A DNA stretch of 64,000 nt from Acidobacteriota bacterium. Lineage in GTDB: Bacteria; Acidobacteriota; Terriglobia; Acidiferrales; UBA7541. A program made the translations under genes and the position numbers. Below the pieces are notes generated by a model. It was not told where the DNA came from. It saw nothing but the letters and a program-made list of their open reading frames with translations, and did not search any database. The DNA lies in contig PMTV01000053.1 of NCBI GenBank assembly GCA_003167215.1, forward strand, positions 230,472 through 294,471, written 5' to 3'. This document shows, in pieces, positions 14,960-18,050 of this stretch (the stretch's first letter is position 1; every line of letters starts with the position of its first letter).

Positions 14960-15517
14960 ATGGCGTTCGTCGCGAAGAAAATTTTCTTAACAAAAGGGGT
15001 GGGCAAACACCGCGAGCGTCTTTCGAGCTTTGAGTTGGCATTGCGCAATGCCGGAATTGCCGCGTGCAACATCGTTCGCGTCTCCTCGATATTTCCTCCC
15101 TACTGCAAGCTGATCTCCCGAAGCGAAGGGCTCAAGCATTTGAAGCCCGGCCAAGTGGCGTTCACCGTGATCAGCGAAAATCAAACGCGTGAGCCGCATC
15201 GGTTGATCGCCGCCGGCGTCGGCCTGGCGTTGCCCGCTGATAAATCCATGTTCGGTTATTTGTCCGAACATCACTCATTCGGCGAGAGCGAAGAAATTGC
15301 CGGAGAGTACACCGAAGAGCTCGCTGCGGAAATGCTGGCGACAACGCTGAACGTAGAGTTCGATCCGGACCTGTCGTGGGACGAGAAAAAAGAAGTCTAT
15401 CGCATCTCAAACAAGATCGTTCGCACCATGAACATCACGCAGTCGGCCGTCGGCGACAAGCGCGGCCTGTGGACCACCGTGTTAGCCGCTGCAATTTTAA
15501 TCGGCGAAGACGATTAG
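14960..15517 (+). CDS. Pyruvoyl-dependent arginine decarboxylase
   Basis: FLTKGVGKHRERLSSFELALRNAGIAACNIVRVSSIFPP contains the Ser-Ser self-cleavage site; GLALPADKSMFGYLSEHHSFGE. Confidence 0.93.
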   Translation: MAFVAKKIFLTKGVGKHRERLSSFELALRNAGIAACNIVRVSSIFPPYCKLISRSEGLKHLKPGQVAFTVISENQTREPHRLIAAGVGLALPADKSMFGYLSEHHSFGESEEIAGEYTEELAAEMLATTLNVEFDPDLSWDEKKEVYRISNKIVRTMNITQSAVGDKRGLWTTVLAAAILIGEDD

Positions 15518-15569: not shown

Positions 15570-16673
15570 CTATTGTTTTTTCGAGGGGGAGTGTGTTGTT
15601 GAAGAGGATCGGTCTGCTTTTAGGTAGCCGATGCGTTCCAGGACAGCGCCGACGATAAGCGGCAGGGCCACCGTCGCGTCGTCGAGCACCTCCGCAAATT
15701 TGCCGCCTTCTTCGCGAGGCACAAACTTCCCCCAGGAAACAGCCTCGGTATATGTGCTGCCGGATAGGCCGCCCCAATTCACAGGCTCTGGGCAAATCCG
15801 CAGGCCGTAGTTATAGCGTTTCAGCGGTATTTTTTCGTAGCCTCGGCGCGCGAGAAGCTCGGCATAAACTCCAAACTGCTGGGCCCAATTGCGCGGGACG
15901 CCGCCGCCGATGGTGAAAATTCCCATCCGCTTCGTGGCTAGCATGGTCGAAGCATAATGCTCGAAATCCAGATACGGGTCGAAACGTAGCGGTGTCTTCC
16001 CTTCTTTCTTGCGCTGCCGTTGATATAGCGCAAAATCAATTCCGAGCTCGGAATCGGTGAACGCCGGAACGAAAACCGGAACATTATGCTCGACGCAGGA
16101 TTTCAGGATGCCACGGCCCTTGGCGTGTTGTTGCAAATATTCGCCGATACGGCGGTTCATTTTCCAACTGCAGACCGTTTCTTCCGAATCCCAACGCTGG
16201 AGAACGTGATCCACCACTTCTTCCACGGCATCCAGATTTACTTCCGGCTCGAGCGAATCGTAAACGCGGTTATAACCCGCGAGGAAAAGCTCGTTGTCTC
16301 CCATTTTTTCGTCGTAGCGAAAATGAGAGCGGCCGGTGGCTTCCACCAGGCCATGGGCCATCAACGCACCCGTGGAAACAATCGCCTTCACAATTCCCGA
16401 TTCCACCAGGTCACAGAAAACCAAACCCATCTTGCCTACGGTGAGCGCGCCGGAAAGAGTCATGACGATGAAGCAATCTTTATCGCGAGCCATCGCCTCC
16501 AGCACGTCCGCGGCATCGCCGATTTGCCGGGCGGTATACGCAGTTTGGCCCATGGCGCGAACCATGTCGTCAATTGTGCGGATGCGTTGGAGGTCGAGCG
16601 GAAAAATAGGTGTGAGGTGATCTTCGATCGGGTCGTGCAGTGTACGCCCCGTCACGCCCTTTTTTTTTGCCAT
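15570..16673 (-). CDS. Deoxyhypusine synthase-like protein (possible homospermidine synthase)
   Basis: FIVMTLSGALTVGKMGLVFCDLVESG, GGGVPRNWAQQ, GSTYTEAVSWGKF (EAVSWGK carries the catalytic Lys in DHS). Confidence 0.92.
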   Translation of the reverse strand: MAKKKGVTGRTLHDPIEDHLTPIFPLDLQRIRTIDDMVRAMGQTAYTARQIGDAADVLEAMARDKDCFIVMTLSGALTVGKMGLVFCDLVESGIVKAIVSTGALMAHGLVEATGRSHFRYDEKMGDNELFLAGYNRVYDSLEPEVNLDAVEEVVDHVLQRWDSEETVCSWKMNRRIGEYLQQHAKGRGILKSCVEHNVPVFVPAFTDSELGIDFALYQRQRKKEGKTPLRFDPYLDFEHYASTMLATKRMGIFTIGGGVPRNWAQQFGVYAELLARRGYEKIPLKRYNYGLRICPEPVNWGGLSGSTYTEAVSWGKFVPREEGGKFAEVLDDATVALPLIVGAVLERIGYLKADRSSSTTHSPSKKQ

Positions 16674-16812: not shown

Positions 16813-17703
16813 ATGTCACGATACACTCCGATGCCGCCCGACAATTTCGGCGGCCTGCCGGAAGAACATTCAACTTACGAGACGTCACGCGCCGTGATTT
16901 TTCCGGTGCCTCTCGAGCGAACAACAACGTACGAATGCGGAACGCGCAACGGACCCGCTGCGATCATCGCCGCAAGCCGGCACATGGAACTATACGACGA
17001 GGAATTGCAGCTCGAACCGTACAAGGAAATCGGAATCGCGACTCAGCCGCCGATTGACACGCAAGACGGCACTTTGAGCGAAGTAACCAGCGAACTTTTC
17101 ACCGCGCAACTGTCACTGCTCGACGATAACAAGTTTCCTGTCGCACTGGGGGGCGAACATGCGTTGACGCCCCCGCTGGTTTCGGCAACTGCAAGAACCC
17201 ACAAAGATCTGTGCGTCCTGCACATCGGCGCGCACGCGGAAATGCGCGATGAGTATCAGGGGAATCCGGCCAGCCATGCGTGCGCCATGCGGCGCGTGGT
17301 TGAAATTTGCCCGGCGGTTCAAGTAGGCGTGCGTGCGCTATCGGAAGCGGAGGCCAAGGCCATCCCGCATTTGCGGACTAAGATTTATTGGGCTAAGGAT
17401 ATCGTGCGCGCCCCGTTGAAGACGTGGATCGCGAAAGTTCTTGAGGATCTAGGGCCACGAGTCTATTTGACGATTAATCTCGATGGATTCGACTCGTCTA
17501 TCGTCCCTTCGACCGTCGCGCCCGAACCCGGCGGCTTAGATTGGCACCAGGTTACCTCACTCGTGCGCGCAGTTGCGGACCATAAGAAAATCGTCGCGAT
17601 GGATGTGGCCGAACTCGCGCCGCGACCGGGCTACCACGCCGCGGACTTCCTGGCCGCCAAGCTCGTTTACAAATGCCTCGGGTATATATTTTGCCAGTCT
17701 TGA
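16813..17703 (+). CDS. Agmatinase/ureohydrolase-family protein with substituted metal ligands
   Basis: ALGGEHALTP, VLHIGAHAEMRDEYQGNPASHACAMRR, YLTINLDGFDSSIVP, PEPGGLDW; fold motifs clear, three ligand positions altered. Confidence 0.9.
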   Translation: MSRYTPMPPDNFGGLPEEHSTYETSRAVIFPVPLERTTTYECGTRNGPAAIIAASRHMELYDEELQLEPYKEIGIATQPPIDTQDGTLSEVTSELFTAQLSLLDDNKFPVALGGEHALTPPLVSATARTHKDLCVLHIGAHAEMRDEYQGNPASHACAMRRVVEICPAVQVGVRALSEAEAKAIPHLRTKIYWAKDIVRAPLKTWIAKVLEDLGPRVYLTINLDGFDSSIVPSTVAPEPGGLDWHQVTSLVRAVADHKKIVAMDVAELAPRPGYHAADFLAAKLVYKCLGYIFCQS

Positions 17704-17720: not shown

Positions 17721-18050
17721 ATGTCGAGTATCGCCGCGTGGATTGCGGGAGTGCAGCGTCCGATGACGCAACGTGACGTCGTCGTTTACGTGGAGACGCA
17801 TTCGATATTTTGGTGGCTCCTGATCGGATTGATCGCCGGATGGCTGGCCGGCACCGTGGCTCGTGGACGCGGCTTCGGGTGTGTCGTGGATGTAATCCTC
17901 GGACTCATCGGTGCCGTAATCGGCGGATGGATTTTTGAAAGGCTAGGCATCGCTGCGTTTGGATTCTGGGGAAGTCTAGCGGCGGCTACCGTAGGCGCTA
18001 TCGTGCTCGTGGCGATCGCAAGACTGTTCGCCGGCGGCCGGTCGGATTGA
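17721..18050 (+). CDS. GlsB/YeaQ/YmgE family small membrane protein
   Basis: LIGLIAGWLAGTVARGRGFGCVVDVILGLIGAVIGGWIF; RBS AAAGGAGA before ATG 17721. Confidence 0.85.
   Translation: MSSIAAWIAGVQRPMTQRDVVVYVETHSIFWWLLIGLIAGWLAGTVARGRGFGCVVDVILGLIGAVIGGWIFERLGIAAFGFWGSLAAATVGAIVLVAIARLFAGGRSD

Follow-up and report, generated by a model that had tools for sequence, protein, structure and literature searches.

A retained agmatinase-like protein with an incomplete metal site in a genus of Acidiferrales, and its likely displacement by AguAB

Background

AguA and AguB convert agmatine to N-carbamoylputrescine and then to putrescine, the same overall step as that performed by agmatinase, with proteins that are unrelated to the ureohydrolases. 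The closest described relatives of the protein reported here are the SpeB-type agmatinases (TIGR01230; structures 3pzl, 3lhl and 7lba). Sequence family, fold, catalytic His, guanidinium-binding Glu and an arginine decarboxylase neighbour are all common to both, yet our protein has three of the six metal ligands replaced, both bridging aspartates among them.

Incomplete metal sites have been described in other members of the arginase family. MetCb/MfmB, the pseudoenzyme subunit of metformin hydrolase (8x3g, 8snf), likewise keeps the fold with at least three of the six ligands lost, and passages of PMC11271267 place proteins of this type at three to five lost ligands, a range that includes the protein reported here. 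However, the latter is only 16-18% identical to the metformin hydrolase chains in a fold search, and while the MetCb gene adjoins that of its active partner MetCa, no intact catalytic member of the arginase family lies beside our gene. The inactive arginase-like protein of Trypanosoma brucei and the arginase domain of a Fusobacterium ornithine decarboxylase fusion have also lost metal-ligand aspartates and function in or near polyamine metabolism. These cases belong to other phyla and contexts, and the passages of PMC8503589 that describe them draw no link to displacement by AguAB. A gene set comparable to ours is found in Thermus thermophilus, where caldomycin synthase, a deoxyhypusine synthase (DHS)-like enzyme acting on agmatine, and a ureohydrolase make homospermidine (passages of PMC10981699). 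The Thermus ureohydrolase completes that pathway, whereas the one described here has a broken site and its DHS-like neighbour has Arg in place of the catalytic Lys. In the abstracts and passages of the open-access literature that were covered, no description of AguAB-linked erosion of agmatinase was found.

The locus and its product

The window, that is, the whole stretch of DNA analysed, comprises 64,000 nt of contig PMTV01000053.1 in an Acidobacteriota assembly of 3.78 Mb and 68 contigs (GCA_003167215.1). Close relatives of this genome carry the labels Acidobacteria, Terriglobia or Candidatus Acidiferrales. Three genes of the window are central to this report:

14960..15517, plus strand, pyruvoyl-dependent arginine decarboxylase, which makes agmatine (Pfam PvlArgDC, 201.1 bits; Ser-Ser cleavage motif intact, VSSIFPP)
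15570..16673, minus strand, DHS-like protein resembling SpeY/caldomycin synthase (Pfam DS, 251.9 bits), divergent from the next gene
16813..17703, plus strand, pseudo-agmatinase: agmatinase-fold protein with an incomplete metal site, 296 aa (profile matches, AlphaFold2 model)

The frame at 16813-17703 opens with ATG, and its product matches Pfam Arginase with 195.4 bits and the NCBIfam equivalog TIGR01230 'agmatinase' with 195.2 bits. The latter score exceeds the cut-off of 174.3, so automatic annotation would name the protein an agmatinase; this calls for caution, as the standard agmatinase model then names a protein whose metal site is broken. The nearest solved structures by sequence are 3lhl (putative agmatinase), 3pzl (agmatine ureohydrolase) and 3nio (guanidinobutyrase). 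The AlphaFold2 model has the arginase fold, with a mean pLDDT of 93.4 and a TM score of 0.86 against 3pzl.

A preliminary description of this DNA had reported three of six canonical ligands substituted along with a Pro-to-Ser change, and our alignment bears this out. The metal motifs read GGEH (H116 kept), GAHAE (D139G, H141 kept, D143E) and NLDGFDS (D222N, D224 kept, P228S). Two further residues, on which that description is silent, are also kept: H155, the catalytic His, and E267, which binds the guanidinium group. By arginase numbering, D139 and D222 match the two aspartates that bridge both metals. With both of them lost, a normal dinuclear cluster is unlikely. The positions of interest are listed below, all on the plus strand and placed by alignment; clade A denotes seven species including that of the window, each assembled separately, and clade B three further species of the same genus.

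17158..17160, H116 codon (GGEH, kept metal ligand)
17221..17223, H137 codon (Gln in all 13 of the order's canonical orthologues; His in this protein and wherever D139G occurs)
17227..17229, G139 codon (canonical: bridging Asp; GGC, GGA or GGG in clade A, Gly throughout)
17233..17235, H141 codon (kept metal ligand, the sole one retained in all lineages of the genus)
17239..17241, E143 codon (canonical: Asp; GAA or GAG in clade A, Glu throughout)
17275..17277, H155 codon (catalytic His; kept in clade A, Pro in clade B)
17476..17478, N222 codon (canonical: bridging Asp; AAT or AAC in clade A, Asn throughout)
17482..17484, D224 codon (kept metal ligand; Gly in clade B)
17611..17613, E267 codon (guanidinium-binding Glu, kept; Gly in clade B and G006)

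Across 13 canonical orthologues 120 positions are invariant. Clade A departs from five of them, with the same change fixed in each of its seven species: Q137H, D139G, D143E, D222N and P228S. All five lie in or beside the metal motifs, three being metal ligands and the other two (Q137H and P228S) adjoining them, a concentration at the metal site that exceeds chance.

Ligand states across the genus and order

An orthologue was found in 16 of the 20 genomes searched of this genus of soil Acidobacteria; it was not found in the remaining four (G003, G005, G009 and G014). The ligand states of the orthologues are given in the order H116, D139, H141, D143, D222, D224, followed after a comma by H155 and E267:

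Clade A, seven species: HGHEND, HE
Clade B, three species: HGHEDG, PG
G013: QGHASD, SD
G006: RDHNDD, HG
G004: HDHNDD, HE
G007: HDHEDD, HE
G011 and G017: HDHDDD, HE (canonical)

Thus one genus presents a graded series: the site is intact in two species, lacks one or two ligands in others, and has lost three or four in the rest. H116 varies among its degenerate lineages, being Arg in G006 and Gln in G013. In the other genera of the order the orthologues are canonical, and sister genera have simply lost the gene.

Whether the Gly, Glu and Asn substitutions are fixed in a clade had been posed as a question in the preliminary description, which regarded canonical ligands in near-identical orthologues as evidence against its reading. 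No such orthologues were found: those 93-99% identical to the window protein carry the same three residues, and identity has to fall to about 77-78% before canonical ligands appear. A sequencing error or strain mutation is ruled out by the sharing of these residues among seven separately assembled species.

A ureohydrolase tree was built after removing the active-site columns. It places clade A as sister to the canonical G011, with the remaining degenerate species forming a second group, and a topology that unites clades A and B is rejected (p 0.005). D139 has therefore been lost at least twice independently, and the gene tree rules against one shared origin of the site in these two clades. 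For the degenerate sequences as a whole, the same tree is compatible with a single origin (p 0.26). The residues H137, G139 and E143 common to clades A and B may reflect convergence or recombination. Trees of RocF and other markers leave the placement of clade B, G006 and G009 ambiguous, and the species tree of the genus is only partly resolved.

Gene neighbourhood

Both the arginine decarboxylase and the DHS-like gene lie upstream of the pseudo-agmatinase gene, and many deltaproteobacterial relatives have the same kinds of genes near a ureohydrolase. The DHS-like protein carries Arg, within GGGVPRNW, at the position of the catalytic Lys329 of deoxyhypusine synthases. This Arg is conserved in the type across three families of the order, while the deltaproteobacterial cluster relatives have Lys. 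A second, Lys-bearing DHS was usually not detected in genomes with the Arg-type protein. That protein may be a DHS-like enzyme that dispenses with the Lys-imine step, or it may itself be a second enzyme that has been altered. A coupling between loss of the DHS catalytic Lys and loss of the ureohydrolase site was considered and rejected; genomes whose ureohydrolase is canonical have the Arg just as well, so the two are unlinked. S-adenosylmethionine decarboxylase was not found in any genome of the order searched, which leaves the DHS-like enzyme as the presumed source of the higher polyamine, by analogy with SpeY/caldomycin-synthase pathways (PMC10981699).

In six species of the genus (G001, G006, G008, G009, G013 and G018; L199-L204) no DHS-like gene is located beside the decarboxylase, and another DHS-like protein is encoded elsewhere (GGGIAGDFPICVVPML). 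The species with this other type include clade B, G006 and G013, all of which have an altered E267. A gene for a small Transgly_assoc-family protein (17721-18050, plus strand) directly follows the ureohydrolase stop codon with its own RBS-like sequence, AAAGGAG, and the two genes possibly form an operon.

AguA, AguB and probable displacement of the ureohydrolase

Agmatine deiminase (AguA) and a canonical ureohydrolase are mutually exclusive in the order. Of the 14 genomes that have a canonical ureohydrolase, none contains AguA; of the 53 that lack one, 46 do (Fisher p 1e-9, uncorrected for relatedness). These counts are constrained by assembly incompleteness, and the seven exceptions among the 53 are incomplete assemblies (55-92%). 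Two degenerate genomes in which AguA was not found, G008 and G016, are 92% and 55% complete. The same exclusivity is seen within three genera, g2 (G032 versus G020), g12 (G030 versus G040) and g16 (G063 versus G064 and G066), each having a canonical ureohydrolase without AguA in one species and AguA without such a ureohydrolase in another. The window genome contains an AguB-AguA operon with overlapping ends, on a contig other than that of the window, and the cysteine motif of its AguA (GTIHCLT) is intact. In G020, G023 and G035, a distance of about 1.2-1.4 kb separates AguA from the cluster's DHS-like gene.

In the AguA tree, the clade A sequences fall with genera g6 and g11, those of most other degenerate species with g12 and g5, and G004 stands apart; the main split between clade A and the other degenerate species is well supported. 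From these separate positions it follows that AguAB entered the genus at least twice, from different sources. A HIT-family gene is situated downstream of AguAB in the window genome (L226, 4030-5663) and beside AguAB in G015 and G019. No close orthologue of it was found in seven other genus members searched, and an empty AguAB site sought in G017 or G011 by way of this flanking gene yielded no orthologue either. The region around AguAB may be a recent gain.

The series of ligand states thus comes with a plausible trigger, the acquisition of AguAB on at least two occasions, and displacement by AguAB is the likely cause of the metal-site loss. The ancestral job of the ureohydrolase, read from its replacement, would have been agmatine hydrolysis. 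On the simplest history, the ancestor would have had a working agmatinase in a conserved polyamine cluster of arginine decarboxylase, DHS-like and ureohydrolase genes. AguAB, gained at least twice, would have taken over agmatine conversion, and the metal centre of the ureohydrolase, by then dispensable, would have been lost by different routes in different lineages.

Retention under selection

For close and moderately distant pairs within clade A, dN/dS by the Nei-Gojobori method lies at 0.016-0.063, and the deepest pair reaches 0.095; the values are 0.09-0.11 in clade B and 0.026-0.08 for canonical pairs. YN00 values are of the same order, and those of clade A match the DHS-like neighbour gene. 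A branch codon model, approximate because the run was stopped by a time limit, gave omega of 0.047 for crown A and 0.084 for crown B against a background of 0.078, with the stem branches slightly raised at 0.105 (clade A) and 0.098. The codons of the new residues differ synonymously among the seven clade A species, yet G139, E143 and N222 are constant. From low dN/dS and synonymous turnover with fixed residues we conclude that selection on the protein continued after ligand loss and that in clade A the altered pocket was held as well. Lost catalytic residues together with purifying selection on the protein fit a pseudoenzyme in the general sense, and there is codon evidence that the altered protein was retained.

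The preliminary description had also judged that the gene does not look like a decaying pseudogene. The opposing view, relaxed selection on a slowly decaying gene whose frame is open by chance, could draw on the four genomes in which the gene was not found, on the raised stem omegas, and on the long branch of G013, with four ligands gone and both H155 and E267 altered. Against this, neither a broken frame nor a dN/dS near 1 was seen: frames are intact in 14 species, dN/dS after ligand loss is 0.02-0.11, and the new residues are themselves conserved. We consider decay very improbable.

Possible roles of the retained protein

The reading that we prefer, with a probability of about 0.62, is that AguAB displaced an agmatinase, which was kept as a pseudoenzyme without metal and whose part in agmatine/polyamine metabolism is probably that of a ligand-binding or regulatory partner. 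Most lineages would have kept a folded, metal-free or metal-poor protein under strong purifying selection. In clade A the remodelled pocket (H116, G139, H141, E143, N222, D224, H155 and E267) is fixed, and the conservation of H155 and E267 within it makes it likely that a guanidino compound or polyamine is still bound there; the protein would then serve the adjacent decarboxylase/DHS pathway as a sensor, regulator or partner without hydrolysing agmatine. Such binding cannot be the role in every lineage, since clade B has lost H155 and E267; selection persists there, which makes a structural partner role more likely in that clade. The missing gene in four species of the genus indicates that the second role is not indispensable everywhere. 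As a more tentative extension, the clade A pocket, with H137 included, may have become a new functional site in the ureohydrolase fold once AguAB took over the old job: a sensor of agmatine or polyamines that needs no metal, or else an altered catalytic centre, in either case regulating the arginine-decarboxylase/DHS polyamine pathway.

The preliminary description had offered a pseudoenzyme, a single-metal variant or a new specificity, and the first of these is best supported. The ligands lost differ between lineages of the genus (G/E/N; G/E with D224G; H116R with D143N; H116Q with D139G, D143A and D222S). This speaks against a single new metal site conserved across the group, although the argument does not extend to clade A taken by itself. 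There, a kept or newly gained mononuclear or non-Mn centre built from H116, H141, E143, D224 and perhaps H137, carrying out a different hydrolysis or acting on another substrate, would accord with the kept H155 and E267, with the fixation of the entire pocket despite synonymous turnover, and with the presence of Q137H alongside every D139G. Yet both bridging aspartates are absent, the related lineages retain quite different ligand subsets, and fully canonical relatives have His at the same place (HLDAHAD), so that Q137H is a weak candidate for a replacement ligand; such remodelling appears unlikely. Still less probable is an ordinary agmatinase working with E143, N222 and H116/H141/D224. The profile score, the kept H155 and E267, the mildness of Asp-to-Glu and Asp-to-Asn changes and the tolerance of zmARG for one His-to-Cys ligand substitution (in passages of PMC6988801) could be cited for it, but D139G takes a bridging ligand away entirely, MetCa loses activity when its ligands are changed to Ala (in passages of PMC11271267), and the genomes carry AguAB. 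A purely structural, metal-free partner of the decarboxylase, DHS-like protein, AguA or arginase, needed for activity or stability in the manner of MetCb or the trypanosomatid prozymes, overlaps with our preferred reading and differs in making the pocket irrelevant. A precedent is MetCb, which has lost five of the six ligands and is an obligate partner of MetCa (PMC11271267, from passages), the whole protein is strongly constrained even in clade B, and the gene adjoins the arginine decarboxylase/DHS cluster. The lack of an adjoining intact ureohydrolase, the loss of the DHS-like neighbour in clade B, G006 and G013, and the location of the G013 gene away from the decarboxylase count against this role, which we hold to be rather doubtful. 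Pseudoenzymes are usually met after the fact, whereas in this genus the fate of an enzyme made redundant becomes testable with natural orthologues.

Other arginase-family proteins of the window genome

The genome contains only two other members of the family, both on another contig. One, L001, is an arginase; the other, L003, is arginase-like but divergent. A second intact agmatinase as active partner was accordingly rejected. L003 (contig C19, 181206-182069, minus strand) has the motifs GGDCS, DRDADLN and FDVDVI, with both metal histidines missing. A His-to-Cys change as in L003 is described in passages on the Zymomonas arginase (PMC6988801), but that protein keeps the second His.
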